Source: Sialis fuliginosa (lineage: Eukaryota; Arthropoda; Insecta; Megaloptera; Sialidae). Taken from it: DNA of 64,000 bases. The stretch spans positions 16,988,001 to 17,052,000 of the forward strand of contig OY540812.1 in the NCBI GenBank assembly GCA_961205875.1, written 5' to 3'. The position numbers were made by a program, and so were the translations under genes. Position 1 is the first letter of the stretch; the number at the start of each line of letters is the position of its first letter. Positions 1-59,600 of the stretch are shown in pieces. The notes under the pieces were generated by a model. The model saw only the letters and a list, made by a program, of their open reading frames with translations. It did no database searches and was not told the DNA's origin.

Positions 1-1563
1 TTTTTAATAAGATTTAGAAATTCTTATTTCACATCATTTTGACTTTTTAATACAATTATATGTTTAACGTCAAGACTTTACTTAAGTACCTATATGATAT
101 AACGAATAAAGTATCTATTATGTTATTACATTTGTACACGAAAAAAAACTATCTGCGAAAAATAACGTGATTTTTAAAAGAAACAAAATAATCATGGAAA
201 ATCGTCGTATAGCCCTGTAATTTAAAAATTTCATGAGATACTCATAAATTGATGGGTAAAACTGCAAACATTACAACCTAAACTTATATTATTACAGTTT
301 CAGAGAGTAAAATATTCAAAGTGACCAAGAAAAAAATTTGTTATAAAAAAATACTGAATTATTATTGAAAATATCCTATGATCGACAATTAAAAATTACG
401 GGACAAACTGTAAAAGTTATAATACGTACAAAGTAATAAATTATTAATAAACTGTATTTATTACTGTACTTACTTTAAATTTCATTAAAAGAATATTGAT
501 TTCGAATCGGGGTGTAAACTAGCTCTCGCTAGGGAAGTGTGTTTGTACTTTCTATAAATGCCTTGGAAAGTGATATTTTTAACAATGGGACAAGTACCTT
601 CTAGCTATTTGCATTACGATCTGGTTGATTGGGATATTACCTAATATTAGCCTTCGATCAAGATTACGAACTCAGTCGATGACGCCAGAGCTCTATCACG
701 GAAATTCGGAGATACCGTTCAAGCGCCATTTTGCCAGGAGCAAACTTCTTTTTAAATTGCTCCAGTTTTTGAAATCAAAAATAACTAAAAATTTATAGTT
801 TGATTTTTTAAACTTTTTTTTAAATCTTGTTTAAGAAATTGACTTAACGTAATCCATTGTACGAGTATGTCACGTATTCTTTAATTTAGAAATGTGATTT
901 AATCGTTATCAATATAAGTAAGAACAAACAAACACGCAGAATCCTTGAATTTGTCCGTGGAACCCCAAGGTTCCACGTAACCGTCCTTGAAAAACACTGG
1001 TATAGATTATAGATAATAATATTTAATTATATTGAACTTTTATATAAGATCTACATCTTTATCATTATTTCTAAACACGACCTAATACCTATGTTTTTTT
1101 TAAAATATAGCAGTTTAAATAGCTCAAGAACCACATTTTTAAGACTCCTGATTTTATCTACCCGTATCACACTTCTTACTTTCCTTCCAGTCTGAAAAAA
1201 TTTGATGTCAATACTGTATACAAATCACACATATTATCCGAACTTATATCGCAATTAATATACATACTATAGCTTACGTCATGTCGCTCTATTTATAAAA
1301 TAATATGCGTATACGTGTGGCAACAACAGTGTTAATAATGGAATTATTCATCCGATAAACTAAAATAAAACAACGCAATGTGTTTGAGAATATGCAACGC
1401 TTATTAATATGTATTTTAAAAACAACTGCTCTTTTCTTTGCGACTTAATAATAGAGATCGTATGTACGACTGACTGTACGTGCATTCAAGAGAATTCGAA
1501 CGTACTTATTAATTTTCCTTTGTGATTTAACAGTCTGATTTTAAATAATATTGTTTGTTTAAG
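1..1563. other. Gene-free AT-rich stretch
   Basis: I see no gene, RNA or clear repeat boundary here. The reading frames are short and broken on both strands and the base composition is that of the surrounding spacer. A short self-complementary stretch near 945-985 (aaccccaagg / ttccacgt) is too small to interpret. Confidence 0.5.
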
Positions 1564-2173
1564 GTAGTTCCAGCATGAAATCACTTTTCGACAGATTTGG
1601 CCGAATTTTTTTTCTCGGGTTTATAACAACTTTATTTATGAATTCCTAAAATTTCATAATTTTTGGCCGTTTAGATCGCGAGATATTTAAAGACAAAGTT
1701 CGCGATTTTGAGGGTCATGTCCCATTTAAAGCATGTAAAATGTCCGGTCTCTCCAACTATTTTTTATTATATTAAAAAATTCACTCGACAGAATTGGAAA
1801 AAAAACTAGGAGAGTGTTGAGAAATAATTTTCGAATAAGTTAAAAAAATAAAAATAGCACCTCGCCGTTTTATTATCAAGATGTAATAATTAAAAAAATT
1901 AATTTTCGATCCATTTCCAACCTGTTCACTCAACAGATTATAGTGATCTGGCAACGCTGTGCGCAACGCTCTCTGAAATAGTGTAGAATAAAAACGCGAT
2001 ACTATTTGTACATACTGAGACCATAAACAAAAATACATAAACACTCAGAGCAACGTTGCCAGATCACTGAAACTAACCATATGTAATTGTATGTGTGAAT
2101 GTCTGTGTGCCGAGGCTTCTAAATTTTTATCTATAGTAAATTGTCTGATTATACTATACCACGCTGGAACTAC
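1564..2173. mobile_element. Possible small TIR element with nested hairpin
   Basis: The ends are inverted copies of each other: GTAGTTCCAGC at 1564-1574 and GCTGGAACTAC at 2163-2173. A second inverted pair lies inside: AGTGATCTGGCAACGCTG at 1942-1959 and its near-complement at about 2049-2068. This suggests a miniature element carrying a hairpin, or one element nested in another. No clean target duplication was found, so the outer boundary is tentative. The 87-codon minus-strand frame inside does not resemble a protein. Confidence 0.4.
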
Positions 2174-2262
2174 GTTAAAAATGTTTATTGACAATTGTTA
2201 TAGAACTCTCAAAATCTTCCTTTTATACCAATGTTTATGTGATTAAAATCTTTCCTTATATC

Positions 2263-2684
2263 CAGTGGCGTATTTACGTTAAGTGCCGCCCTGGACCAAA
2301 AAAAAATGCCGCCCTGGGTAAAAAATAATTGACGCTCTGGGCAAAAAAATTATCGCCCTGGTCAAAAAAAAATTGCCACCCTGGTAAAAAAAAATTGCCG
2401 CCCCTTTACTAAGGGAAAATATTATATATTTTGAACAGAATTTTTTTTACAAATAATGATAAAAATATAATGTACATAAAAAACTGAGCTTTTTTTTTAG
2501 TCACATTAATGGAAATTTCAAATTTTATAAAATTTGTAATACAGAGAAATAAAAACTTGAAGACCTTTTTTTTTTTTTTAAGTCACGCTACTCATTTTTT
2601 ATTTCCCTATATTAAATTTTAAAAATCTACCGCCCCTCTCGGCCTGCCGCCCTAGGCCATGGCCCCATGGTAAATACGCCTCTG
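2263..2684. mobile_element. hAT-like MITE, 422 bp
   Basis: The left end starts CAGTGGCGTATTTACG and the right end is a diverged inverted copy ending in ACGCCTCTG. The 8-bp direct repeat CTTATATC flanks both sides (2255-2262 and 2685-2692). An 8-bp duplication with a CAGTGG-type terminus is characteristic of hAT transposons. The interior has repeated GCCGCCCTGG motifs and no coding sequence, so the copy is non-autonomous. Confidence 0.75.
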
Positions 2685-2804
2685 CTTATATCGAAAAGTT
2701 TTAATAACTTATTTACGCTCCCAATAAAATAATAGTCAATCTTTCGACGAGTATCGCTAGTGCGACTGACAATTGTGTTATGTTGTCTATGGATTTTACA
2801 GCGT

Positions 2805-3167
2805 CAGGGCCGTAACTACAGGCTCGGGGGCCCTGGGGCAAGAAGAGGCCGAGGGGCCCCCAAAATATGAAAAATTGAAGACCTTTTTTTTATCCTTACT
2901 TGCAAATGTACCACTTATGTTAGTGTAATTTAGATTTTAATGACCTTTTTTTGTCGACAATCTCAAGTTTTTTATGTAAATGTACATTTCCTATACTATA
3001 ACTTTATTTTCATGAATAATAAATGTAAAATTCAAGTTGACAACGAAAAAAAAAGTCATTAAAATCAAAATTTGCATTTTCAAGAACCAAATAAAAATAA
3101 AAATAAAAGTTTTACGCTGCCGCGAGGGCACCCTTCCCCGGCTGCCCTGGTGGTAGTTACGGCCCTG
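2805..3167. mobile_element. hAT-like MITE, 363 bp
   Basis: The left end CAGGGCCGTAACTACAGG and the right end GTAGTTACGGCCCTG are inverted copies. The flanks are TACAGCGT (2797-2804) and TACAGCAT (3168-3175), an 8-bp target duplication with one mismatch. There is no transposase. It lies only 120 bp from another hAT-like MITE. Confidence 0.7.
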
Positions 3168-3502
3168 TACAGCATGCAATACATAGACCATATAACACAA
3201 TTCGGTACCTTGTAAAGTAATTGGAATTTGCTTTTCACACAGAACTAGTGGCACCGAAGCCAGGGGGGCAGTTGCCCCTCCAAAATTTTCAGTGGGGGTG
3301 CAGACTACTTTTTACCCCCTCAAAATTTGGATCCTGTTTTTTTTTATGGCGGGTTTGAAGCGACGTGCTGTTATTTACGTTCTGTAATTTTTTTACTAAT
3401 AAAAAATATTTAATTTTTGTAAACTGATGTTAAAGCTCACAAACAAATTATAAAATTAAACCATAAGTCCAGTCAGAGACAAAGAAAAATAAAAAGTGAG
3501 TG

Positions 3503-3644
3503 CAGTGAAACCTCGTTAGTACGTTTTTTTCTTTTTTTTAGGTCCCGGCATTCTTCTATAAGACCCTACGTTAAAATATTTGGTTAGTATGTTTTACGTG
3601 TTTTCTTCCAGTCCCTTTAAAAACATACTAACGAGATTCCACTG
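3503..3644. mobile_element. pogo/Tigger-like MITE, 142 bp
   Basis: The left end CAGTGAAACCTCGTTAGTACG and the right end ACTAACGAGATTCCACTG are inverted copies of the CAGTGRAAYCTCGTTA type typical of pogo-family (Tc1/mariner superfamily) elements. The element is short and non-coding. A TA target duplication is not clear on the left. It sits within a longer stretch (about 3245-3810) that itself looks like a decayed element rich in GGGGGCAG / CTGCCCCC ends. Confidence 0.5.
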
Positions 3645-3809
3645 TATTTCTATTAATTTTTATTTTTTAACAAATAATACGATATTAATCAAACTAAAGA
3701 AAATTTAAGTCAATTTTTTGAAAGTCAAAAAAATTAGGTCCGCTTAATTTTTGAGGTTCATACTGCCCCCTCCCCCAGAAAATATTGGTTCCAGCGCCGT
3801 TGATTGTAT

Positions 3810-3990
3810 ACAAGATAATTTTCATAATATCACTACTGTTTTAATATCATTGGTGTTTAATTACCCCGCGTGCGAGAAACTTGTTAAACACTTCATGATA
3901 CTTCAAGGGAATTATCATAATATAGGTTTGATCCCCATTTGGAAGTGCTTGTTAGTTAATAAACTTTGTTAGCTCCTTTATAATACCGGG
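3810..3990 (+). repeat. Dispersed repeat, shared with 24242-24556
   Basis: This stretch is similar, in reverse complement, to 24242-24556. Shared motifs include TTTTCATAATATC, CACTGTTTTAAT, AACACTTCATGA and GGAAGTGCTTG. It is a truncated copy of the same miniature element family. The 73-codon frame across it is probably fortuitous. Confidence 0.5.
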
Positions 3991-4207
3991 CATAGAAGAA
4001 TATTACATTTTCTTTTTAATGTTGCATTTGCAGCCTAGGTGCAAGGTACAAAATTCCGCCCCTTTTGATATATGGATATGAATCATATTCATACTGATTC
4101 ATAAAAACTGATATACATACTTGTATCTTGAATAAAATACTATTTAAAATGTTATACATAAACAATCTTTTCTAATAATCATTTATCGCATACTTATAGT
4201 TATAATG

Positions 4208-26964: not shown

Positions 26965-27680
26965 AATAAAAACCGATAGTGTTTATATATTATAAATTGC
27001 CTGGAATTGGTTAACCATTCAATTTTTATACAATTTTACTAAAAAATATTAGTTCGAAATTTTTCTTAAAACGCATCTGAATATTTTTTCATATATTTTT
27101 AATGTTTTGACAATTTCTAAATCTAAATTTATGCAAATGTCAAAATGACATTTAAAACGTCAAAATCACATTTAAAACGCTAAAATGACATTTAAAACGT
27201 CAAAATCACATTTAATATATTCAAGCAAATATCAATTTAGAAAAACAAAACACGAATTTTAAAAATAAATTGAGATAAATCTTTGTAAGGGAATATTTTA
27301 CAACAAACGTTGTAGACCCATATTATAAGAAATTTAATGTTCTATAAAATTTTCACGTAACATGTATCGTTCTTAAAATATCTTGAAAAAATAAATATTT
27401 TGGAGTGTCACCCCTCCCCCTTATACACGATTTTAAAATGGGACCGTCCTCAAGCCAGACCCAACCATCCGACCAAGTTTCAATAATATCAGTTCAGTGG
27501 TTCATGAGTTATGCGTGTGACAAGGATTCAGGGGACAGACACGGAACGAAAAGTGTTTGTCTTGACGTGAAACGGAAAGATAAATTTAAAATTTTGAAAT
27601 CGGAGAACATTTTTTTTGTCTCATTCTAAAAACGATCACAAAGCTTCTCGTATCTTCGATATTGCGAGGAAGCAAAACAT
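26965..27680 (+). repeat. Dispersed repeat family A, copy 3, with 20-bp minisatellite
   Basis: Collinear with 18720-19260 and longer at its 3' end. Within it, 27140-27219 is four head-to-tail copies of a 20-bp unit (TCAAAATGACATTTAAAACG with single-base variants). The other two copies have the motif once, so the expansion is local. The repeat ends about 160 bp before the FAM210 start codon and probably forms part of that gene's promoter or 5' UTR. Confidence 0.65.
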
Positions 27681-27837: not shown

Positions 27838-30800
27838 ATGAATTCTGGACGTTTTATCATTAAAAATAAAAATTTATTACTTGCAACAAGCTCAAAATGG
27901 GGTAATTTAGGTTAGTATATTATCTATTATTAAATATTTTCATATTGTACCTATGTGACACTAATATTTTTTTTATCAAGTTCAATGACATTGTATTGTG
28001 CCGGTTTTTATATCTAATTTTATTTAGTGTCATCATCTCAATCGAAACTGCATATAACAAAACCACGGTATCCTTTGGCGAAGCCTTTACCATTGCCAGA
28101 AAACTTAGATGGTATCAGTCGGTTTGAAATTGGACATTGGTCACCTCTTCGTACCCGTGATATTAACGGACCATCTATATTGTGGCATCCATCGAATTTT
28201 CGCTACGGCGGATGGATCTCGTCTGTTACAACAGATCCACGAGTAGAAAGTTACGATTGTAGAGGCTTTGTAAGCCTTTCCTCATGCATGCAAACGAATG
28301 TCCCAACTCCATTCTCATCGAACGGAAAAGCTATGCATTTTAATATGCCTGGCGGTCTGTGGGAACAAGGGAATAAATTTACTGCAGAGAATATGAGAAG
28401 TGTTCATTATTTAAACACTGTTAGAAGTAAGTTTGGTAAAAAGTGGGACGCATGAATTCTGAATCTGTTTTTAATATTTTACAAATGCCTCTTTATATAT
28501 GTATTATTTTATAAGTAGGTATAATATTATCCCTTTGCGGTTTGAGTGTCCTGACCATCAACACTTAATTTAAACTGGTATTCAAAGGGTTAATAATATA
28601 ACAAAAATTAATAGATTGTATTTTTTTATCTAACTGTAGTAATACAGTCAAATATGTTACTCTGTCTTTTAAAAATGTGATAAATTAAAATTTTCTATCT
28701 TTTGGAAAGAAAATAAAATAGTCTGTGATAAAAGAAGAATTAAATTATTAGATTTATAAATAACGATACAAAAAATTAAATTATAAGTTTTTATATAAAA
28801 TTTTTTTGCTTGTTTGAAGTGCCCAGTTATATACTTTGCTCCAATGAATTGAATTAAAAATGTACTGTAACATTGATAAGATTAATATAAGATATTTTAG
28901 TATTGTAAATTTACAATCTAATATATATTTTGTAAGAAGTATTAATGTATTGTATTATTTTGCAACAATAAAAGTAAGTTGATTTAACTGAAATTGTTAC
29001 TTATTAAATAAAAATCTACTATTTTACATTGAGTTTTATTTTTTAAGGTATGAGTACCGAAGTCAATAACACAACACCTGAAAATATCAGTAAGAAAGAA
29101 AAGTTCAAACGTTTTGTTAAAGAATATGGAAGTACTGTTATTGTATTTCATGTAACAATATCACTAGCTTCTCTAGGAATCTGTTATGTGGCAGTATCCA
29201 GGTAATTTTGTCTGAAAATACAAGTAACAAAAAAAATCGTAACCATTGAGTAAAAAATAACAAGAGAAACAACGTATACGCATTGAGTAAAAAATAACAA
29301 GAGAAACAACGTATACGGGAGAGTTGAAACGCAGTAGATATATGAACCATGCACTATTTGAGCCCCAGGAAGTGCTGGTATCTATTGAAAAAATTATTAA
29401 TTATACATATGAAATATCTGGTTTTCGACTCTGCTAAATCGTCAGATTTTAAGCTCCGCCCTTCTGAAATGATTTACGAACGTCTTGTTTACATTATTTT
29501 AAGTCGGCTGATACGTGATACAAAGGCGGCAAGAACGTTGCAAGAAATATTCGTTACTTATTATCTTTTTCTTTTAAATAAAACAAAAAAAATATGTAAT
29601 GTTAAAATTATTTGAGATAATTGCTGCTATCAATAATATAATAGATTTTTGCTTTAAAATAGGTTTTTATAAGTTGTAAGAAATTTAAATTTGTGACGCG
29701 ATGTTACATTACTGATGATATAATAAGTAAAATTAGATTGATCGTTTTATTCATTTCAAATTAATATAAAAATATATCAAAACTAAAAATATGGTTCTGC
29801 GGTTTTTTGTATCTACATTGCTTTAAACATAGAATATGGATTGTGGACCGATACATATTACATATAATAATATATACAAAATAAGTTTTTTTATCTTCTT
29901 CAATGAAAATTAAAAATTCTTTTGTTTTTATTTCTCAAATATTATTTATTAAAATTACTTTTGACCAAATATCATCGAAATTTTTATTATTTATGTACAT
30001 TTTTTTGATATTTTGAAGAAATAAAAATCCTTTTTTTAGGCCGACGCGACGGCTGGAATGTTTCTACATATAAAGAAAAACAGAAAAAATAATAATTTAA
30101 TATTGCATCCCCTGTCGCGTATGGAGAGTCGTAATTATTTTCATTCGATCCGGCGGGAAAAATACTATGGGGAAGTACCCTCTCTCGCATAGGAGCCGAA
30201 ATATTTACAATTTTTTAAGTTCGGTTAGGTAAATAATACATATAGATAATACAAATTTTTGTATGATAATCGATAAACAGGTAAAATTTTACACACCCAT
30301 TTTTTTATCTAATACATTTTTCGGGATACAAAGTAGCATATGTCGTTCTTCAGGATGCAAGCTATCTTCCAGCCAAATTTCATGAAGATCGGTTCATCGG
30401 TTTAGTCGTGAAAAGGTAAAAAAAACAGACAAACACACTTTCGCATATGTAATATTAGTATGGATTTAAAGCAATGAAAAAAAATTGGAATAAAAGATTT
30501 CACGATTTCTATTACTAAACATTACATTCTAAAAGGTAAGCTGAAACGTCGAAAACCACACGTAAAATCTCGGCTTGAAACATTGAAAGCTTGTTCAAAT
30601 TGTCCAATAAGAACTAGAATATTGTGTAAGGAATGTGACGAGATTTTTCGATGTGTTTCAAAAACAAAGACTACAATAAGTCAGCTATCAGAGAGAGGCA
30701 AGGGGACTCACAATAAAAAAGCACCCCAAAATGTACACAGTAATTTGAATATGACTGAAAGATATAAAACATGTAGTTTATAATGTTTTATCACTAAAAA

Positions 30801-33800
30801 TTCCGAAAAAAATGATGATTTTTAAATTTTTACCCCCACCATATTGAATTAAAAACGGGGAATGAGTGAAAATATTTACTGTAATAGTGTATTTAACATA
30901 GAATTTCACTTTTATTATAAGTAGCTCATAAAAGCATGATACAAAAAAAATCTTAATTTTAGAATTTTTTTTATTATTTTTACCATTTTGGTGAGTTTTA
31001 AATGGTTTAAGGTGACAAAAAAAAATGTTTTCTTAAACTCTGATACCTCCGATCACCGTTGATCATAGTTTCAATTCAATTCTGATACTCTTTCGACTTG
31101 AAAAAAAGTGAAAATAAAAAATCTCTTATTTTTTGATACTTTTCGATTTAAAATCCGCCATATTTTTTTCAGAGCCATAAAAATGCAATTTTGAACCCGG
31201 AAATCGAAAGAGCACACTCGAAAATAGTAAAATACATTACTTTTATTTATATTAGTTCCATTATTCTTAATGAGTTTGGAGCTCAAAGATTGACGAAAAA
31301 ATTGTTATTTTGGTCCTTAATGGGTTAAATTGCCGTTACCCAAAAAAGTGGTATTTCATTAAGATCGGTTTAGCTGTGAAAAAGTAACAGACAGAAAGAT
31401 AGACCCACATTCGCATTTATAATATAAGTACGGAATATTTCGGTATTTTGGTTTTCATTCATTGTACAAAATTGTAAATATCTCGACTCCTATGTGAGAT
31501 AGGGGACTGTTTTTCCCTCTAAACCTCCATTCCCGTAGAATTTTTCCTACCGAATCTAATAAAACTAATTACAACCCTCTATATGTGAATATATAGGAGG
31601 TCAAATATTTAAAAAAAAATTTTTTTTGGTTTTCATTCATTATACAAAATCGTAAATATCTCGAATCCTATGCAAGTTAGGGGGTTGATTTTCCCCCTAA
31701 AACCCCTACCCACGTAGTATTTTTCCCGCCGGATACAATGAAACCAATTACAACTCTTCATATGTGACAGGGGGTGAAATATTAATGACCAAAAAAATGT
31801 TCCCATACAAACTTGTCCACCTCCTTGCAATTCCTTAGGGGTTGTTTTTCGGGAATCGAAGTAGCTTTTATCCTTTCCCAGTATGCAAGCTATCTTACTG
31901 TCAAATTTCATCAAGATCGGTTCAGCGGTTTAGCCGTGAAAAGGTAACAAACAGACAGAGAGACAGACAGACACACTTTCGCATTTATAATATTAGTATA
32001 AAAAAAAAAAATTCTACTAATTGATATCTATATTTTGACACCCCACAAATTCTATGACGTCCCTCCCTATTATTCCAAAATTTAAAATTATATTGTTGAC
32101 TTTAGTATTTTTCTTTGGTAGTCTCACCACAGCCTCATTACCAATTTTTTTTCAGATTTTTTGAGCCAGTAGTTACAAAGTTAGAGGGGGGGGGGACAAA
32201 ATAAAATTTTACTTTTAGCCTCCTACAGGCGCCATTTTTGAGTTAGAAAAAAAATAAAAAATATGGTCATATTCTACTAATTGAGATCTACTATATTTCG
32301 ATAACCCACATGCCTAGATATGAAAATTAAACTTAAAAATTCTGACACCCGTCCCTATTATTCCAAAATTTAAAATGATATTATTGACTTTAGTATTTAA
32401 CGTTGGTAGTCTCACTAAAGCCACTTTACCAAATTTTTGCAGATTTTTTGAACCAGTAGTTACCGAGGTAGAGGGGGGACAAAATTAAAAACTGCTTTTA
32501 GCCTCCTGCTGGCGCTATTTTTGAGTTAGAAAAAAAATATATAAAAAAATAGGGTCAAATTTTACTAATTGAAATCTACATTTTGATACCCCACACGTCT
32601 TGATATACAATTTTTTATTTATTTTTATTTGCTTTAAAGCTCCCTGCTGGCGCAATTTTTGATTTAAAAAAAAATAAGAAAAAGCGTCAAATTCCACTGG
32701 TTTGGTTATACATTTTAACGTGCCACATGCCTTGATATAAAAAAAATATTTTGTTTACCTAGCTTCTCCTTAGCGTCAACCCTGAAAAATTATTTTTTCA
32801 ACAAAGTACATCTTTTACTAGAAGGCATTATTTGACATGTTCAGTAAAAATTTCAAGTTACTAGCTTATATAGTTAACGAGATATTTTGCTTTGACTGAA
32901 AATGACGGACAGACGGGCGACAAAGTGAGATTAATAGGGTTTCTTCGGAACCCTAAAAAAGAGTTTGTTCATTATTTTAATTTTAATAACACATTTATTA
33001 TACCAATAATTTTTCCAACTACTAACATAACTTTTTCAATTACATATAAATACATATTCATGTTAGAAATGTATTAAATAGATCAGTCGCGCCCGACAGA
33101 AGGTTAAAAATAAAATAATAGTACGAATCACAAGTCACAACGTGTGAAATAGTTAAAGCCGCGTCAATGTTTACATTAACATGAACAGAAACTAGTAATA
33201 TATATATTAAACTGGTTTGGGTAAAGGCGGAGCTTAAGCTTTGTGTGCTGTCAAGCGAGGGGCACGGGACGGATAATTTTGTATCTTGGATAATAAGTTA
33301 GTTCAAGTTCCGATTGTAAGATGGCTTGAGTGCTGCCACCTAGAGCTTGGAACATCGTCCCCGTTTCATCAAAATACATTGCGTTGTTTCTCTTGTTATT
33401 CTTTACTCAATGGTATACGGGAGAGTTGAAACGCAGTAGATATATGAACCATGCACTATTTGAGCCCCAGGAAGTGCTGGTATCTATTGAAAAAATTATT
33501 AATTATACATATGAAATATCTGGTTTTCGACTCTGCTAAATCGTCAGATTTTAAGCTCCGCCCTTCTGAAATGATTTACGAACGTCTTGTTTACATTATT
33601 TTAAGTCGGCTGATACGTGATACAAAGGCGGCAAGAACGTTGCAAGAAATATTCGTTACTTATTATCTTTTTCTTTTAAATAAAACAAAAAAAATATGTA
33701 ATGTTAAAATTATTTGAGATAATTGCTGCTATCAATAATATAATAGATTTTTGCTTTAAAATAGGTTTTTATAAGTTGTAAGAAATTTAAATTTGTGACG

Positions 33801-36800
33801 CGATGTTACATTACTGATGATATAATAAGTAAAATTAGATTGATCGTTTTATTCATTTCAAATTAATATAAAAATATATCAAAACTAAAAATATGGTTCT
33901 GCGGTTTTTTGTATCTACATTGCTTTAAACATAGAATATGGATTGTGGACCGATACATATTACATATAATAATATATACAAAATAAGTTTTTTTATCTTC
34001 TTCAATGAAAATTAAAAATTCTTTTGTTTTTATTTCTCAAATATTATTTATTAAAATTACTTTTGACCAAATATCATCGAAATTTTTATTATTTATGTAC
34101 ATTTTTTTGATATTTTGAAGAAATAAAAATCCTTTTTTTAGGCCGACGCGACGGCTGGAATGTTTCTACATATAAAGAAAAACAGAAAAAATAATAATTT
34201 AATATTGCATCCCCTGTCGCGTATGGAGAGTCGTAATTATTTTCATTCGATCCGGCGGGAAAAATACTATGGGGAAGTACCCTCTCTCGCATAGGAGCCG
34301 AAATATTTACAATTTTTTAAGTTCGGTTAGGTAAATAATACATATAGATAATACAAATTTTTGTATGATAATCGATAAACAGGTAAAATTTTACACACCC
34401 ATTTTTTTATCTAATACATTTTTCGGGATACAAAGTAGCATATGTCGTTCTTCAGGATGCAAGCTATCTTCCAGCCAAATTTCATGAAGATCGGTTCATC
34501 GGTTTAGTCGTGAAAAGGTAAAAAAAACAGACAAACACACTTTCGCATATGTAATATTAGTATGGATTTAAAGCAATGAAAAAAAATTGGAATAAAAGAT
34601 TTCACGATTTCTATTACTAAACATTACATTCTAAAAGGTAAGCTGAAACGTCGAAAACCACACGTAAAATCTCGGCTTGAAACATTGAAAGCTTGTTCAA
34701 ATTGTCCAATAAGAACTAGAATATTGTGTAAGGAATGTGACGAGATTTTTCGATGTGTTTCAAAAACAAAGACTACAATAAGTCAGCTATCAGAGAGAGG
34801 CAAGGGGACTCACAATAAAAAAGCACCCCAAAATGTACACAGTAATTTGAATATGACTGAAAGATATAAAACATGTAGTTTATAATGTTTTATCACTAAA
34901 AATTCCGAAAAAAATGATGATTTTTAAATTTTTACCCCCACCATATTGAATTAAAAACGGGGAATGAGTGAAAATATTTACTGTAATAGTGTATTTAACA
35001 TAGAATTTCACTTTTATTATAAGTAGCTCATAAAAGCATGATACAAAAAAAATCTTAATTTTAGAATTTTTTTTATTATTTTTACCATTTTGGTGAGTTT
35101 TAAATGGTTTAAGGTGACAAAAAAAAATGTTTTCTTAAACTCTGATACCTCCGATCACCGTTGATCATAGTTTCAATTCAATTCTGATACTCTTTCGACT
35201 TGAAAAAAAGTGAAAATAAAAAATCTCTTATTTTTTGATACTTTTCGATTTAAAATCCGCCATATTTTTTTCAGAGCCATAAAAATGCAATTTTGAACCC
35301 GGAAATCGAAAGAGCACACTCGAAAATAGTAAAATACATTACTTTTATTTATATTAGTTCCATTATTCTTAATGAGTTTGGAGCTCAAAGATTGACGAAA
35401 AAATTGTTATTTTGGTCCTTAATGGGTTAAATTGCCGTTACCCAAAAAAGTGGTATTTCATTAAGATCGGTTTAGCTGTGAAAAAGTAACAGACAGAAAG
35501 ATAGACCCACATTCGCATTTATAATATAAGTACGGAATATTTCGGTATTTTGGTTTTCATTCATTGTACAAAATTGTAAATATCTCGACTCCTATGTGAG
35601 ATAGGGGACTGTTTTTCCCTCTAAACCTCCATTCCCGTAGAATTTTTCCTACCGAATCTAATAAAACTAATTACAACCCTCTATATGTGAATATATAGGA
35701 GGTCAAATATTTAAAAAAAAATTTTTTTTGGTTTTCATTCATTATACAAAATCGTAAATATCTCGAATCCTATGCAAGTTAGGGGGTTGATTTTCCCCCT
35801 AAAACCCCTACCCACGTAGTATTTTTCCCGCCGGATACAATGAAACCAATTACAACTCTTCATATGTGACAGGGGGTGAAATATTAATGACCAAAAAAAT
35901 GTTCCCATACAAACTTGTCCACCTCCTTGCAATTCCTTAGGGGTTGTTTTTCGGGAATCGAAGTAGCTTTTATCCTTTCCCAGTATGCAAGCTATCTTAC
36001 TGTCAAATTTCATCAAGATCGGTTCAGCGGTTTAGCCGTGAAAAGGTAACAAACAGACAGAGAGACAGACAGACACACTTTCGCATTTATAATATTAGTA
36101 TAAAAAAAAAAAATTCTACTAATTGATATCTATATTTTGACACCCCACAAATTCTATGACGTCCCTCCCTATTATTCCAAAATTTAAAATTATATTGTTG
36201 ACTTTAGTATTTTTCTTTGGTAGTCTCACCACAGCCTCATTACCAATTTTTTTTCAGATTTTTTGAGCCAGTAGTTACAAAGTTAGAGGGGGGGGGGACA
36301 AAATAAAATTTTACTTTTAGCCTCCTACAGGCGCCATTTTTGAGTTAGAAAAAAAATAAAAAATATGGTCATATTCTACTAATTGAGATCTACTATATTT
36401 CGATAACCCACATGCCTAGATATGAAAATTAAACTTAAAAATTCTGACACCCGTCCCTATTATTCCAAAATTTAAAATGATATTATTGACTTTAGTATTT
36501 AACGTTGGTAGTCTCACTAAAGCCACTTTACCAAATTTTTGCAGATTTTTTGAACCAGTAGTTACCGAGGTAGAGGGGGGACAAAATTAAAAACTGCTTT
36601 TAGCCTCCTGCTGGCGCTATTTTTGAGTTAGAAAAAAAATATATAAAAAAATAGGGTCAAATTTTACTAATTGAAATCTACATTTTGATACCCCACACGT
36701 CTTGATATACAATTTTTTATTTATTTTTATTTGCTTTAAAGCTCCCTGCTGGCGCAATTTTTGATTTAAAAAAAAATAAGAAAAAGCGTCAAATTCCACT

Positions 36801-37755
36801 GGTTTGGTTATACATTTTAACGTGCCACATGCCTTGATATAAAAAAAATATTTTGTTTACCTAGCTTCTCCTTAGCGTCAACCCTGAAAAATTATTTTTT
36901 CAACAAAGTACATCTTTTACTAGAAGGCATTATTTGACATGTTCAGTAAAAATTTCAAGTTACTAGCTTATATAGTTAACGAGATATTTTGCTTTGACTG
37001 AAAATGACGGACAGACGGGCGACAAAGTGAGATTAATAGGGTTTCTTCGGAACCCTAAAAAAGAGTTTGTTCATTATTTTAATTTTAATAACACATTTAT
37101 TATACCAATAATTTTTCCAACTACTAACATAACTTTTTCAATTACATATAAATACATATTCATGTTAGAAATGTATTAAATAGATCAGTCGCGCCCGACA
37201 GAAGGTTAAAAATAAAATAATAGTACGAATCACAAGTCACAACGTGTGAAATAGTTAAAGCCGCGTCAATGTTTACATTAACATGAACAGAAACTAGTAA
37301 TATATATATTAAACTGGTTTGGGTAAAGGCGGAGCTTAAGCTTTGTGTGCTGTCAAGCGAGGGGCACGGGACGGATAATTTTGTATCTTGGATAATAAGT
37401 TAGTTCAAGTTCCGATTGTAAGATGGCTTGAGTGCTGCCACCTAGAGCTTGGAACATCGTCCCCGTTTCATCAAAATACATTGCGTTGTTTCTCTTGTTA
37501 TTCTTTACTCAATGTCGTAACTTAAAATTATTTTTCAGTGGTCTTGATATAAAAGCAACGCTAAGCTGGTTTGGAGTCAGTGAAGAATTTATTAATAGTA
37601 AGTTTGCTACAGGTACTGGGACATTTGTTGCTGCCTACGCCGTACACAAACTGTTTTCACCTGTACGTCTTAGTATAACTATTGCGTCAGTTCCATTCAT
37701 TGTTAGGTATTTACGCCGCATAGGTTTTTTAAAAACACCTCATCGTGTACAATAA
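27838..37755 (+). CDS. FAM210A/B homolog: FAM210 (DUF1279) mitochondrial membrane protein, four exons
   Basis: Exons are 27838-27910, 28028-28426, 29048-29201 and 37539-37755; splice phases all fit and the product is 280 residues. The start was set at ATG 27838 because the frame upstream is repeat-derived; the first residues (MNSGRFIIKNKNLLLATSSK) are basic and hydroxylated like a mitochondrial presequence. Residues about 168-262 form the DUF1279 region: KRFVKEYGSTVIVFHVTISL, then YVAVSSGLDI, FATGTGTFVAAYAVHKL, and SPVRLSITIASVPFIVRYL. This closely follows FAM210A/B, which act in mitochondria. Exon 2 supplies a long N-terminal part (residues 25-157) that I do not recognise. The last intron (29202-37538) is 8337 bp because of an 8271-bp transposon insertion; without it and one target copy it would be 59 bp. 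Whether the copy is A- or B-type is not resolved. Confidence 0.88.
29244..29317. repeat. Duplicated 37-bp left end of the tandem element
   Basis: The 37-bp segment 29244-29280 (the left terminal repeat plus GTATACG) is repeated directly at 29281-29317. The second body copy at 33413 starts at GTATACGGGAG and lacks this left end altogether, so the array holds two left ends at its left edge and none at its internal junction. Confidence 0.85.
29311..33412. repeat. 4102-bp tandem repeat unit, copy 1
   Basis: This unit starts GTATACGGGAG and ends TTTACTCAATG. It carries its own mosaic of older repeats: two stretches ending in CACTTTCGCATATGTAATAT or CACTTTCGCATTTATAATAT (about 30340-30465 and 31850-32000) of the kind found at insect retroelement 3' ends, and diverged internal duplications at 32010-32240 and 32270-32500 (shared TTGACTTTAGTATTT and TTTTGAGTTAGAAAAAAAAT). 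The 32.0-32.9 kb part is also related to 52950-53690. Confidence 0.85.
30448..30783 (+). pseudogene. Cys-rich frame inside the tandem unit (also at 34550-34885)
   Basis: An open frame without an obvious start runs through IKDFTISITKHYILKGK and KRRKPHVKSRLETLKACSNC to a stop at 30783. It contains C-x2-C-x7-C-x2-C-x5-C (CSNC, CKEC, FRC), which looks like a small zinc-binding module such as those at the C-terminus of piggyBac-type transposases. I cannot assign it firmly. An identical copy lies 4102 bp downstream. It is probably the remnant of a transposase tail; it may also be an unrelated fragment captured by the element. Confidence 0.35.
33413..37514. repeat. 4102-bp tandem repeat unit, copy 2
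   Basis: Identical to copy 1 wherever I compared it, including long homopolymer runs and all open frames. It follows directly after the right terminal repeat of copy 1 with no left terminal repeat between. Its right edge is the true end of the insertion, followed by the TCGTAAC target copy and, 24 bases on, the FAM210 exon 4 boundary. Confidence 0.85.
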
Positions 37756-39032
37756 TTTATTATGAAGAAAGTATATCATAATAATTGTTTTCATATTATA
37801 TTTAAATAATATATATCCAGGTATTCTTCTACTTACAACTATATGCAAAATAATAATTTATGTTATTTCATCAATCATTTGTGGAAAGTTTGTTATTTAC
37901 TTGATTTTGATATTTTATATGAAATCTTGATCTATGACCAAAGTCATAGCCCTCACATCTTATTGCGGGCTTCCAAGTTAAGAAACTAAACACATATTTT
38001 TAACATAAAAAAATTTCTGACTCGCCACTCCCACAAGCAAAAGCCCTGTTAGTCTCCCGCTGTGGAGACCATGACCAAAGTATTGGAATGGAACTCTATA
38101 GTTAGTTGAGAACTAGTTATTATACCTGTATATGTATTTATATATATATATATAATAATTTGTAAAATGGCTGTGTTGAATTGAATATATTTGCCATGAA
38201 TGTGACTTTTTCATGTAGGTAAGGTGATGGTTAAAAATTATTTAACAATATCACATTTTTTTTTTGTATTTATATTACATAGGTTTGTGTAATTGGTATA
38301 CATTTTTAATAGTTTATTTTTTCAAAATAGAAATACAACAAAATAAGTTAACAATATAGTCATAAAAAGTTATATATGTGTATAATAAATATTATTCAAG
38401 CCTCACAATATCATAAAATTGGCAATTGTATAGAGCAAAGAATATATATACTAAAGATATTGAAAAGAGAGAAAATTTCTATATTCTATAAAAATATTAC
38501 AATTACATGTAAGAGTGTACGTATATTAATTAGAGGCAGTCTGAAAATGTGTATATTAAGCTAATTGAACATTTTAATTTTTAAATTAAGTATGTTAGTG
38601 CAATAGAAATAACTAACATTTATAGGAGTATGAAAGTGGACCTAAAATATTCGTGCACCCTGGATTGTATCATTTTAATAGGATTAATATCATGAATTCA
38701 GATCTATAAAAAAGTTTTGTTTTCAATTATAGACAACAAAATATTTTGTAACGAAGACTTATTTATAGTGATTTTTAATATCGTATTATTATTATGAGTA
38801 TGTAATTTTTTCAACTATTTATATCATATTAAATTACTAAAATAAAGATTAAAAATGGTATTGCTTTATTTATTTGTTCTTAGTGCGGACACTGCAGACA
38901 ATATAGTTTATCAAATTGCAAAATTTAGTTAGGAATTAATATTTTCCATGAGGTTATTTGGCCCACATTTTTTATTTTGATTAAATTACTATCTCAGAAT
39001 AATGACTTGTTCAAAGCTTAATAATTATAATG
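37756..39032. other. Convergent 3' ends of FAM210 and MPPE1
   Basis: AATAAA at 38841-38846 (+) is a candidate poly(A) signal for FAM210, giving a 3' UTR of about 1.1 kb. TTTATT at 38865-38870 is AATAAA on the minus strand and would serve MPPE1, about 160 bp past its stop. The two signals lie some 20 bp apart, so the transcripts probably end tail to tail or overlap slightly. No other gene is seen here. Confidence 0.55.
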
Positions 39033-50201: not shown

Positions 50202-53200
50202 TCAACCGTCAGCTAAAGCCGGTGTTACCCAACCGTATTTGTCATGGGTTTTTATCAGTGATCTAAAACTTTGTTCGGCTGACCTCTTGTTAAAGTCTTT
50301 GGTACCGTTTTTTGATCTAGCGATGCGACCCTGGCCTTTGACCAGACTGGCTGCAAACTGCATCAGGACGGCTTCCACGGTGTACGCACTCGCCCAACCA
50401 CGGGGAGTAAGTAGTTCCATGCAAATAGCACCACCTTCCATCACAAAACCTTAAAAAGATACAAAATGTGTATTATATATAAACATAAAATTTATGTATT
50501 TATATTAGGGTGTTTTTTTGATCCCATTGGTCTATGTTTTAGCTTTGGATCAAAAGTTAATTGTCCCAAAATTTCAGACCCATAGATCAAACCTGTAAAC
50601 GGCGTAACCCGAGTCTTTTTCCCATTTGATTAGCATGGGAAAAATTACTTTTTTACTTATGCATGCATGAATAGCTCGTTGAAAAATTTATTTATTTTAA
50701 TTTCTTACAGTAGCGTATTATAGAGAATTATATTTCCTACAAAAAGATCCCATGTGCTCAATTCATAGATCAGTATTTTTAAAGATATGTTCTTTTAAAC
50801 ATTATCATAAAAATAGTTATTTATTATGATATTATTAAATATAGTTATCAGGAACGGTGCTCTGGAAGCCAACTTTAATAAAAAAATTGATTACCTCTGA
50901 TTTTTTTTGTACAAAAAAATACATAAATTGTGTGCAGGTCATAACGCGATTTTTTTAATTTATTTATTATTTATTAACTTTTTATTCTACAAAATAAACA
51001 ACAAAAATAAAAAATTATTGGAATTCGACTCGGGACTCATTGTTTAAAGATCTTTTATATTTTTTTGTAAATTTTGAAATATAAAACAAACGGTATTTTA
51101 TATCGAAAAATCACAAGAGACACAATAATTTGCTTTTATTAAGGGAATTCCAAAATATATTTGATATTATCGATATGATAATTAATACCCGAGATATGAA
51201 TTATTTTCAATTTTGAACGGCCGCCATTTTGAAATTCATAAAGGAATTCCGCTAACTAACGAATATAACTGAGGTATTTACAAGATCGATTTTTCTACCA
51301 AGTTTCAAAAAGATCGGAATAATACCTGAAAGGCTAGAGACTCCACAAGAAAAAAAACCTTATAATAAAATTGAAAATAATAACTCGGGTACTAATTGTC
51401 GGATCGATATTATCAAATATATTTTAGAATTCTCTCAATAAAACCAAATTATTGTATCTCTTATGATATTTCGATATAAAGTGCCGTTTGGTTGATATTT
51501 TTAAATTTACAAAAAATTATAACAAATCTTGTAATCTAAGGGTCCAGAGTTCGAATCCCAATATTTTATTTTTTTATTTTTTTGTTTATATTGTAGAATT
51601 GTAGAGTAAAAAGTTAATAAACAATAAATGCTAAATAAAATTCGCGTTATAATTCTGCATACGATTTATTTATTTCTTATTTTATGAATTATTAAAAAAG
51701 CGCCTAGGCGATTTTTTTCTTTTTGGTCTTAAAATATTCCTTAAATACTAAAGAATTGAACTGTACAAAAAAAATCAGAGGTAATAAATTTTTTTTATTA
51801 AAGTTGGCTTCCAGAACACCGTGCAGGGGTTATTTTAGTGTATAGTTGTAGCTTGTTTCTGCAGTTCTAAAAATGAAAACTACAGTTGTAAAAGCTAATT
51901 TGTGTAGTTGAAAATTATAAAATATATTATATGTTGTATAAAAAGATATACTACAAAAAAGGTACATCCAGTTGAAAAATTACAAGTAGAAAGCAAAAAA
52001 AAAGAAATAGCAAGGAAAATGTACAATTGTGAATTTTTTTAAAAATAACCCCTGATAGTTATTTGTAGTGAAATATAATTAAATTACATATAGAGATAAT
52101 AATATGTACTGTAATATAAATTAAACAACAGTGAAGTACAGCAAATATATACTTAAAGAAAAAAATATTATTATGAATTATTTGTATTTTTCCCGTGATT
52201 AGGAAATTTGAAAAATTTAAAAAAAATCCCTGATAAGAACACCAGTTACTTGTATTATGGATTTACCTTTTTCTATCCTGGGTGAGATGACACGCATGAA
52301 AGGCGGTGCGAACGGAAAGTTCTCCGGAAAGGAGAGATGCAACAAGATATGCGGCACGTCGAGCTCTTGCATGTCACGAGCTAGGTCACTGTCGGCGTCC
52401 ACGCGGTGGAGTCTCACGTGCCACTCGAACAGGCTATCATCTACTAGCTCTACTGTGAACGGCAGAGACACGTCACATCGCTGCAACCGCTGTAGTTCTC
52501 GTAGTTCTTTCATAAGTCTTCGGGCACGAACACTTCTCTATAAGAAAGATAATTATATATTATTCATACTGTCTCAAATAATGTATGCATACAAATATAG
52601 CCCATATCTTCCTTAATTTTCGTTCTCTAATTTAAAGTCAAGAATCAACCATTAGGTTGATTTTCGAAAAAAGTTTGTCCAAAAGTACTAATGGAAGTCA
52701 ATAATATAACCAGTGCTCTATAGGGGTCATACAAAAATATATGGATGAACACTTTCGTTTTTAAATGCCCCCCCCCCCCCCCCTCCCCCGCAACAGACGT
52801 ATCGTAATCAGTGTAGCAATTTTAACATTTTTGAAATATTGAAAATTATAAGAATTCAAGAGAAATAATTTGGTCAAGACATACACGAGTGTATTCCATA
52901 ATAATTCCGAAGTACGTACTACGTGGACTGTTTGAAGCCATAGGTGCATTATTGAATTATAAAAAAAATTGAGATCTACATTTTGAATCCCCACATGCCT
53001 AGATATGAAAATAAAAATAAAAAAAATATATGACGCCCCTCTTTATTTCTCGGTTTGAAATGATATTGTTGACTTTAGTATTTATCATTGGTAGTATCAC
53101 CAAAGCCTCGTTACCAAATTTTTAAAAAAATTTTGAGCAGTTATCGAATTAGAGTGGGGGGGACAAAATAAAATAATGCTTTTAGTCCCCTGTGGGCGCC

Positions 53201-54639
53201 ATTTTTATGTTAGAAAAAAAAATAGGGTAAAATTCTACTAATTAACTACATTTCGATATCCTACTCGTCTTGGTATACTTTTTTGTTTATTTATTTTTTT
53301 TAAATTTATTTTAAAGCCCCCTGCAAGCGCCATTTTTGATATAGAAAAAAATAAGAAAGAGGGTCAAATTCTACTGGATTGGTTTTTGACGTGCCACATG
53401 CCATGGTATAAAAAAAAAATTACCTAGCTTTAGCTCCTTAGTCCCCCCTCCTGAAAAATTATTTTTTCAACAAATTTGAACATCTTTTACTAGAGGGCAC
53501 CATTTTATATGTTCAGTAAAAATTTCAAGTTTCTAGCTTATATAGTTTACGAGATATTTTGCTTTGACTGAAAAGGACGGACGGATGACAAAGTGAGATT
53601 ATTAGGGTTTCCCGAAAATTTTACTAGATAAAAAAATTCAAATTCCACGTGGACGAAGTCGCGGGTAACAGTTAGTATTATATAAAATCTGTAACTGAAA
53701 AATTATTAACCATCGCATAAATTAGATTTCTTGACAAAAATAAAAATAAACAAAAAATAATTCTAGTAGTAAAACTACGTATCTTAATTTTGAAATGATA
53801 AGTAGGTACACTTTCAGAACAAATAAATTTTAAATTTAATAATAAATAGCGAAGAATTGTATTATTTTTAAAGAATATATATTTTTTTCATTAAATTAAC
53901 AATGTTAATTATACGATAAGCAGTAGCGTAATTAATTTTTTTGACCTTTAATAACTAATCAAAATAATAGATACTCTACATTTTTGAGCATTTTATTTTA
54001 CAATTAACTAGAAACATTAATTTTTTTAACATACTATAACGAAATCATCTCTAAGAAATAATAATTTATAAGTAGAAAAAAATAATTCTAATTTTTGATT
54101 AAAGAAAATTAAAAAATCATCGAATAAATACATACTATTTTAATTATTACATTACGCCATTATCACAAAAATGGTCTTCAGTTTTCACTGAATTCTGATT
54201 TTTCAATGAACATTAAAGGAAGTAAATATTTTATTTTATTTTTTTGACTTACATTAGCACTGCATATGACGGATGAAATTACCTCAGGAGGTATTGCAGA
54301 ACGTTCAGCTGATCTTGTTTTTTTATCGGGCGCTATTCTCGCCCCTCTACCCCTGGGGCTGACTGGAACACTGGCTGGAGCTACAGCATCTCTACACCGA
54401 AGCAGTCTAGCACCTCCTGGAGATCCTAGACGCTTACTGCACGCTGCAGCCGACGTGCTCGTTTCTGCCGAAGCAACAGCATCCGGGTCACCGGTGTCAC
54501 TCGTAGTTGTGGAACTTTGGCCAGCTCCGGTAGCTCCGGCGCCTCCACCACCGGCCCCGCTCGAAGCACGAAGCTTTTCACTCGAACGAAAAAGCTTTCT
54601 AAATGCAGCAGCTACTTTTTCTTTAGATCTGGACGTCAT
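50202..54639 (-). CDS. UBE2QL1: UBE2QL1-type ubiquitin-conjugating enzyme E2, three exons
   Basis: Minus-strand exons are 54639-54253, 52537-52267 and 50449-50202 (TGA at 50204-50202). Phases 0 and 1 fit, giving 301 residues. Residues 1-129 form a Gly/Ala/Ser-rich leader starting [17 protein letters not shown], which has no fold that I can see. Residues 130-301 are the UBC fold: [47 protein letters not shown], then [20 protein letters not shown] with the predicted catalytic Cys229. The tail is [12 protein letters not shown] and [12 protein letters not shown]. This matches UBE2QL1/UBE2Q enzymes, which transfer ubiquitin from E1 to targets. The family lacks a classical HPN triad before the cysteine, and none is seen here. 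Intron 2 (50450-52266) holds a foldback element and intron 1 (52538-54252) a retroelement-like repeat. Only exon 1 is a plain start, at ATG 54639. Confidence 0.92.
50854..51822. mobile_element. Foldback element in UBE2QL1 intron 2, about 970 bp
   Basis: Outer ends ACGGTGCTCTGGAAGCCAAC and GTTGGCTTCCAGAACACCGT are inverted. Arms run to about 51222 and from about 51370, with paired blocks such as ACCTCTGATTTTTTTTGTAC / GTACAAAAAAAATCAGAGGT and TTTGATATTATCGAT / ATCGATATTATCAAA. AGAGTTCGAATCCC at about 51545 resembles a tRNA B-box, but no A-box or cloverleaf was found. There is no coding capacity and no clean target duplication. Confidence 0.7.
52768..52789. repeat. Cytosine homopolymer tract
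   Basis: Sixteen consecutive C followed by T and five C, in intron 1 of UBE2QL1. It has probably expanded by slippage, and its length in the assembly may be unreliable. Confidence 0.8.
52950..53690 (+). repeat. Retroelement-like repeat related to the 4.1-kb unit
   Basis: Collinear with about 32010-32950 of the tandem unit: CCCACATGCCTAGATATGAAAA, TTGACTTTAGTATTT, ATGTTCAGTAAAAATTTCAA, GAGATATTTTGCTTTGACTG and GACAAAGTGAGATTA occur in the same order. Here it ends in CGTGGACGAAGTCGCGGGTA then ACAGTTAGTA, a 3' terminus widely seen on insect non-LTR or SINE-like elements. This shows that part of the tandem unit is an older captured repeat. Confidence 0.65.
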
Positions 54640-56672: not shown

Positions 56673-59600
56673 ATCTCTGGACAGAATTCTTGAAGAAGCT
56701 CAACTTAGTGGTGAATTAAAATTAAGTGGTAGAAAATTAAAAGACTTCCCGAGCTCAGCATCAAGATACAATTTAATCGATACGGTCGTCGCAGGTAAGT
56801 TTACATATCTTTCTCTCTCTTGTACGCAAACAAATAGTATTTGCGTACTGTTTTAATCGTTTTCCTGCTATATATGTTTGATGATAAAATTAACTTCCTT
56901 TTATTCAAGGGGGTGCCGACTCATAAATTATTTTATTTATCACTGTTTATGACCTATGTTTAAAATATATTTATAACGATTTTAAAATATAACTTCCTGT
57001 ATATTTCACAGTATAAATCTTAATTCGCAGTTAAAAGTAAATAACTAATTTGCATTAATTTAATTGAATTTTTTATAAGAAATTCCGAAAATGATCAACT
57101 AATAATAATATAGGTATATAATATCTACTATTGGTTTTTTAAATTATTTTTTTAGTTACTATACATGCATATAAAAACCTACTCTGATAACTAAATAAGC
57201 GTTTTATCGGAAATCGAACACGCGACCTTTTATTCGAACCTTAAATCGTATTTATATTGAGTTCGTGACTCATGACATTTAATTTTAAACAGTAAAATTG
57301 TATTATGTACGTATAAATGACTGGCACTGACATTCTGATTAATTAACGATTAATGAGAATGTTAATGTATTTAAAAAATATTTCGTTTGATTTTATTTTT
57401 ATCTTAAAATATTTTTTTTAATTGAATGAATGTGGTATTTACTTCCGTTTTGAAAGGAAATTGGAATTTCCGGTTACTTACAAAGTACATGCATCTGTTC
57501 TGTAATAATAAAGTATTCTTTGAAAATTGTAAAATATAAGAAAATTTTATATTTGTAATGTTTTCGTAAATATTATCATTTCAACAATAAAGTTACAATA
57601 ATAAATATATATTATAATTTATACATCTATTTATTATCAGAGTAAAATTAGGACGATAGGGGGTTCTCGGTACACTCGGTACCGGAAAAAGGGGGACTTT
57701 GTATATATCAACAAATCAGATCTTAATTGTGCTTTGACAATTGCACATACTATTTTATTGTTTGAATCCTCTAAAATTTAGAATTATTTCAATTGAAAGT
57801 AAATGTTTCGTTTTAGGACCCAAACAGTTAACATTTGTACTTTTTTTCTTTTTGAATAATATATTTATAAAAAAATATTTAGGACTTGCACATATTAAAT
57901 TTTTTTATTGTTTATTTAATATTAAGCGTATAATTAAGTATTTCACAACATACTTTATATTTAATTTTTAACTGATAATAGTATTAGTGGGGAATTTAAT
58001 TAATTCAAAGAGAGTTTTGTCCCAAGGCAACTCTTAAAAAGGCATCGATAACGTAAAATAAAAAAAGGTTTGCAGTTATACAAAAAAATAGATTAGGAGT
58101 GCTTATTTCAGTTTTTGCCAGGGGCCCAGTGACCTCTAGCTACACCTCTCTACGTATCTACAAGTAATATAAATAAAAAAAATTTGTCGGGAGAAAAATA
58201 TTATTTAGCACCTCAAAATGGTAATGTTTGAAAACACCAAACTTGAGACTATGTTTATGTTTATAGATTTATCCAAAAATCGTTTGTCGGAAGTGCCATG
58301 TGCCCTGGGCTCGTTCCCATTCTTAGAACGCCTCCAACTATATCACAATGTGATTCGCAACATTCCATCAGAAGCGATCTGTGCTCTAAGACTTCTCACT
58401 CATTTAGACCTGAGCCGCAATCAATTGACATCTCTACCAAGAGAACTGTGCGCATTGCCATTAAAAGTTCTTCTTATATCTCACAACAAATTGACGCAAT
58501 TACCTGATGAGATATGTCGTCTCACCAAACTCGCCGAATTAGACGCTTCGTGCAACAAATTGACGCAGTTGCCTTCGAGAAATTTCAGCGCTCTCATTCA
58601 GTTACGCAGTTTACTTCTACGAGACAATCTTTTGACATATTTAACAGTAGAAGTTACAACATTACCACTGGAACGATTAGATTTGAGAGAAAATCGAATT
58701 GGATCTTTGCCTATTGAGTTAAGGCTTATGCACAATTTAATTGAGCTGCGTCTTGATGATAATCCACTTACTTGTCCACCAGCTGCGGTAATTTTCTGTT
58801 CAATATTATTTATTAGCTGATTATATTATAACACAATTATACTATTATATTGTATATATTGTAAATACCGTTGTAATTTTAGATATGTAAACGTGGTCGT
58901 GTACACATATTTAAATACTTAGAACTAGAAGCAGCACAACGAAGTCAAACAAGGCCTAATGCAGATGTGAGACGCACATTAAGTCAACGATCAAATGTCG
59001 GCCTACCAATGCATATAAACAGACATCGTAGACATAACATAGATAGTGGTTACTCTACTAGTGATGGTTACGACAGGAGATGGTCACAAGAAATACAAGG
59101 TTATACACAATTTTATTTGCTTTAAGTCCAAAGTTATTGATGATAATTGTATCAATGTTGTAATCAAAAAAATAATATAAAATATATTTTGTAAAAAATT
59201 TACTTACATTAGCTTAAAATGTAATAGAATATTTAAAACTTTAATTTGATCCACACCAGAACCAAACCAAACCCTTTCTATGAGGTGTCAAATTGTTTAT
59301 GAATATAAAGCTGCTATCCTTATATTATATATTTAAATTTAATATTCTGCAGATAGCGTTTGTTTTGGTTTTGGTGTCTGCCAAATTTTTTATAATATCA
59401 AACATAAATGAATTACTCAAAATTTATTTATTTTTGAAAACAACATATATTTTTAAAATATAGCGGGAGGAGAATTAGGACCATTGAATGTTTCTACTCC
59501 TGACGGTTCTAGAGTTTCGACACCTTCGACTATTTCTCCTGGAGGTCATTCCTTATCCGATGAACAAGGAAGGTAATTGATTGTAAAATTTATTTTAGAA

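Follow-up and report, generated by a model that had tools for sequence, protein, structure and literature searches.

Nested self-insertion of a TIR transposon within a FAM210 intron of Sialis fuliginosa

Insertion of a transposon into a copy of itself is an already known and rather ordinary kind of event, and the double Ds of maize and the P-in-P elements are familiar self-insertions. Membership of the P superfamily is decided by a P-type transposase (THAP, RNase-H-like) in an autonomous member, and a P-like TIR sequence is not known to be a requirement across that superfamily. In the portions of the literature cited here, the P element is described as having 31-bp TIRs, transposase sites located 9 or 21 bp further inward and subterminal repeats of 11 bp, and local hopping is described for it as well (PMC7776569). 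The target of the P superfamily is palindromic with a tendency towards ANAGT...ACTNT, and 1360 makes a 7-bp target duplication (TSD) at 274/279 tabled sites, with the target motif GTTNAAC (both from the cited part of PMC3276498). Galileo also makes 7-bp TSDs, with the consensus GTANTAC (cited sections of PMC2775673 and PMC4168063), and its TIRs are usually long and internally repetitive, with short ones occurring, in the excerpts concerned (PMC2775673; PMC3573991 on D. mojavensis; PMC3688188). The mapping of self-insertions is among the stated functions of Genome ARTIST v2 in the cited part of its description (PMC9604107).

The locus described here lies in a window of 64,000 nucleotides (the whole stretch of DNA analyzed) from Sialis fuliginosa, where the two exons of a FAM210 gene are separated by an intron carrying an insertion. 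The gene features are as follows.

29050-29201, + strand: FAM210 exon upstream of the intron, given from the ATG at 29050 (PF06916 match of the joined protein, splice check)
29202-37538, + strand: FAM210 intron with the insertion, 59 bp without it (GT donor at 29202, AG acceptor at 37537-37538, frame kept)
37539-37755, + strand: FAM210 exon downstream of the intron, terminating in a stop

The insertion sits in the intron that splits the FAM210 domain. This intron is now 8337 bp long, and 59 bp remain after subtraction of the insertion and one TSD copy. A Pfam search with the joined exons returned the full FAM210A/B domain (PF06916, profile 1-88 of 88, E 2.6e-29). Growth of the intron from 59 bp to 8.3 kb, as proposed in the first-pass annotation, is thus borne out by the GT/AG sites, the kept frame and the full PF06916 match in the joined exons.

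The outer boundaries of the insertion are formed by one element in two pieces, flanked by its target duplication.

29237-29243, no strand: outer 7-bp target duplication TCGTAAC, left copy (sequence comparison)
29244-29280, + strand: outer element, left piece (bp 1-37), comprising the left TIR and target duplication (direct repeat)
33413-37514, + strand: outer element, right piece (bp 31-4132), from GTATACG to the right TIR (copy comparison)
37484-37514, - strand: right TIR of the outer element (inverted-repeat search)
37515-37521, no strand: outer 7-bp target duplication TCGTAAC, right copy (sequence comparison)

The outermost ends (29244-29274 and 37484-37514) are inverted repeats with 30/31 bases matching, so that the inverted ends of ~30 bp reported earlier are 31 bp long with one mismatch. 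The exact 7-bp duplication TCGTAAC reported with them was found again at 29237-29243 and 37515-37521, and besides these two flanking copies the motif has one further + strand occurrence in the window, at 25795. Outside the region, 8/38,923 position pairs set apart by the outer spacing (8278 bp) agreed in 7 of 7 bases, which gives a chance of ~2e-4, an estimate that covers the outer spacing only. Lying head to tail, positions 29311-33412 and 33413-37514 show the same sequence throughout their 4102 bp, and the two 4102-bp units of the first-pass annotation were confirmed by base-by-base comparison of the copies, with 0 differences.

That description contained neither a 37-bp direct repeat nor a second TSD, both of which were found in the follow-up. 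Element bp 1-37 are present twice in direct orientation, at 29244-29280 and 29281-29317 (37-bp repeat, 29244-29317), and the second 4102-bp unit begins at element bp 31, without the first 30 bp of the element. The second 7-bp duplication, GTATACG, lies at 29274-29280 and 33413-33419, exactly outside a complete element.

29274-29280, no strand: inner 7-bp target duplication GTATACG, left copy (sequence comparison)
29281-33412, + strand: inner element, complete, 4132 bp, same sequence as the outer element (both TIRs; zero Pfam domains in six frames)
29281-29311, + strand: left TIR of the inner element, 30/31 complementary to the right TIR (inverted-repeat comparison)
33382-33412, - strand: right TIR of the inner element (inverted-repeat comparison)
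33413-33419, no strand: inner 7-bp target duplication GTATACG, right copy (sequence comparison)

When the outer element was put back together (29244-29280 plus 33413-37514, one GTATACG counted) it was the same as the inner element, each being 4132 bp with 0 differences; both 7-bp duplications, both full sets of ends and the lack of any copy difference were observed directly. The inner copy is complete and has its own TSD, and the outer copy belongs to the same family, is complete apart from the interruption and also has its own TSD. In the outer copy GTATACG is present on either side of the inner one. In the inner copy it occurs once, at bp 31, and the inner copy therefore provides a built-in empty-site control. 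Because a second 7-bp TSD flanks a complete element within an identical one, the locus is read as a nested self-insertion and not as a tandem duplication, one copy of a TIR transposon having landed, in matching orientation, within bp 31-37 of a copy identical to it (probability approximately 0.93).

The first-pass annotation had called the array a tandem dimer of a TIR transposon; the TIR transposon stands, while the tandem dimer does not, as unit 2 is without the first 30 bp and the inner copy has its own TSD. Two identical 4102-bp units head to tail would be accounted for if one insertion had been duplicated in tandem, whether through unequal crossing-over, through slippage or as an inserted head-to-tail dimer, but unit 2 starts at element bp 31 and not at bp 1, the array opens with 37 surplus bp from the left end, and the internal junction coincides precisely with a transposon end next to a 7-bp repeat, positions that such a duplication could reach only by chance. 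An exact loss of 30 bp in unit 2, a gain of 37 bp at the front and 7-bp repeats at both ends would be unexpected from crossing-over, slippage or a circular dimer, and we regard duplication as extremely improbable. A single element in the intron to which the assembler added a second is very improbable: the copies are 100% identical in the assembled sequence, as such an artefact would have it, but two junctions precisely at transposon ends and a second, different 7-bp duplication would be required. Assembly doubling is not easily the cause, since each of the two new junctions coincides precisely with a transposon end. It is possible that a real nested pair from elsewhere was mis-joined at the FAM210 intron. 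As for the earlier choice between a very recent duplication and an assembly doubling, the lack of copy differences agrees with a recent event if the assembly is right, and doubling would not be expected to yield a second, different 7-bp TSD at transposon ends.

For the nested self-insertion, the proposed course of events is that a non-autonomous 4132-bp TIR DNA transposon would have entered the 59-bp FAM210 intron, duplicating TCGTAAC, and that a second identical copy would have entered bp 31-37 of the first in the same orientation, duplicating GTATACG. The second insertion may have taken place in the intron, or the pair may have been formed elsewhere first and then have moved in as a single 8271-bp unit. 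The latter is a variant of nesting with another order of events, the pair having formed at another locus and moved as a composite through its outermost ends. Neither the outermost ends nor the TCGTAAC duplication has been damaged, four end pairings exist (4132, 4169, 8234 and 8271 bp) and nothing found in the window orders the two insertions, all of which would suit such a transfer; against it, the unit to be moved is longer, and the subterminal repeats no longer lie beside the outer left TIR, which may weaken it, so that we consider movement as a composite unlikely. Movement would in either order be of the cut-and-paste type, by a transposase supplied in trans, and local hopping of an excised copy into its replicated sister copy would simply explain the identity, place and orientation of the nested copies. 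Zero differences in 4132 bp correspond to a 95% upper bound of ~0.07% divergence, if the assembly did not homogenise the copies, and transposition would be very recent if the assembly is right and the identity real.

When all six frames of the inner element were translated, stops being written as X, and compared with Pfam, 0 families were retrieved (E up to 1), and the element is therefore taken as non-autonomous. The region contains 44 open frames of at least 50 aa, both copies counted. Five element frames were searched singly against Pfam, and four were blank while one gave a weak FDC-SP match below the cutoff. A 101-aa open frame at 30478-30783 (copy at 34580-34885) has a CxxC...CxxC...C pattern and no Pfam match; we presume that the pattern resembles the cysteine-rich tail of piggyBac transposases. 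Against PDB sequences this frame gave 8 distinct matches at E up to 10, with ribosomal protein bL32 as the best (E 0.017) and, weaker, a DDE_Tnp_1_7 protein at E 0.55.

Element bp 2999-3663 align with window positions 52967-53611 at 78.5% over 685 columns and bp 2767-3029 align with the same stretch at 75.3% over 263 columns, together with three shorter pieces. From this similarity, and from direct and inverted repeats within the element, the interior has the look of a mosaic of older repeats. Judged by the likeness of such internal repeat strings to known ones, the host would probably be an insect and perhaps a lepidopteran. A TIR pattern scan of the window showed none of the element's TIRs near 52967-53611, and this stretch is probably an older repeat, part of which is contained in the transposon. 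Within the window a 23-letter TIR pattern fits only the four ends of the nested pair at up to 3 mismatches. The same pattern gave 0 exact matches in viral and prokaryote contigs, two collections in which relatives are not expected. A search of literature text with TIR and repeat strings found no paper on the family, the 7 papers with one or more of five such strings appearing unrelated by title and repeat libraries such as Repbase lying outside that search. Elsewhere in the window, 58209-58820 is an exon of a leucine-rich-repeat protein (PF13855, E 5e-20), and short tandem arrays are located at 27135-27215 (20-bp unit) and 2284-2403 (23/44-bp unit).

The element ends carry the TIR sequence CATTGAGTAAARAATAACAAGAG, and two further pairs of motifs lie inside them.

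29325-29331, + strand: TGAAACG, bp 45-51 from the left end (mate at bp 45-51 from the right end, 33362-33368, - strand)
29449-29460, + strand: 12-bp subterminal inverted repeat TTAAGCTCCGCC, bp 169-180 from the left end (partner at bp 176-187 from the right end, 33226-33237, - strand)

TGAAACG is at the same offset in both ends, and a same-offset run of equal length arose in 8/2000 shuffles (bp 32-100); for TTAAGCTCCGCC an equally long run arose in 2/2000 shuffles (bp 32-250, offsets up to 8), both motifs having been chosen after viewing. The internal motif spacing is symmetric at the two ends of the element. Comparison of the TIR with the P-element TIR gave no significant similarity, with 787/3000 and 1448/3000 shuffles scoring as high. 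The targets, GTTACGA (outer, read on the - strand) and GTATACG (inner), fit the P-group motif in part; both TSDs begin with GT in one orientation (chance ~0.01, post hoc) and neither fits both halves of the motif.

The TSD was 7 bp long in 2/2 insertions, which is one of the two lengths (7 or 8 bp) of the P superfamily; the 8-bp TSD of hAT elements was found in neither. Two 7-bp TSDs thus fit a described superfamily, P, with its 7-bp members 1360 and Galileo, and the earlier statement that no common superfamily accommodates a 7-bp duplication was too strong. Because the ends show no significant similarity to P and the element yielded no transposase, we have not filed it in the P superfamily, which is taken as a lead. 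That a transposase of the P superfamily (1360/Galileo-like) mobilises the element appears to us an evenly balanced proposition. The same two observations favor placing the element, with the nesting real, in a superfamily other than P, either an undescribed superfamily or hAT or MULE, whose TSD would then be atypical, a reading to which we would give a little under an even chance. It has to contend with two TSDs of 7 bp, when hobo (hAT) of D. melanogaster makes 8 bp in 1,196/1,198 sites in the cited part of PMC3276498, and with the nature of Dada, which makes 6-7 bp duplications, but in U6/U1 families without TIRs and with small-RNA gene targets as far as the cited section of PMC3706591 describes them.

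Dada membership was rejected for the element, which has 31-bp TIRs and whose targets are an intron and a transposon. An Rfam search of 29000-37800, made as a check for a Dada-type small-RNA target, gave no match at the gathering threshold. A pink bollworm MITE with a 31-bp TIR was also rejected as a relative, as it has a 2-bp TSD and a different TIR in the cited part of PMC6522560. In the portion of PMC1852546 cited, a 7-bp TSD in an H. zea table belongs to a truncated RTE retrotransposon. We consider it quite improbable that a P-like lineage with 7-bp targets has, where its own left TIR ends on the inner side (bp 30-37), a palindromic target, CGTATACG, and so repeatedly self-inserts, giving composites with two left and two right ends that are movable in four sizes.

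What had appeared as an odd duplication is thus a clean example of a transposon copy inside an identical copy, and it brings its own empty-site control. The two target duplications of this locus point to the same target length, 7 bp, which narrows a genome search for the family. If the sequence identity is real, the element would have moved only very recently, and its family may be active in the host to this day. For annotation, transposons described as 'tandem' are worth checking for a second target duplication.

Among the named systems, 1360 (Hoppel) of Drosophila, in the P superfamily, is alike in its 7-bp TSD and in being an animal TIR transposon, and differs from the element here, in which no transposase was found. 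The outer target GTTACGA (- strand) fits the left half, GTT, of the 1360 motif GTTNAAC but not the right half, in a comparison that covers the target sequence. Galileo, of the same superfamily and also from Drosophila, has the 7-bp TSD in common, and the inner target GTATACG shares the GTA of its consensus GTANTAC as given in the cited excerpts, in which Galileo TIRs are usually long whereas those here are 31 bp. The end layout here, with 31-bp TIRs and shared motifs at bp 45-51 and ~bp 170, may be likened to that of the P element of Drosophila melanogaster, which has 31-bp TIRs, internal transposase sites and short subterminal inverted repeats in the part of its description cited. Its internal site is spaced differently at the two ends (9 and 21 bp) in that same part, whereas the spacing here is the same at both. 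Its TSD is 8 bp against 7 bp here, and its TIR sequence has no significant similarity to the TIR here. Double Ds and P-in-P elements likewise place one copy inside a copy of the same family, a coarse likeness; the self-insertion described here would differ in combining the same orientation, a position at the inner edge of the TIR and a location inside a host intron.
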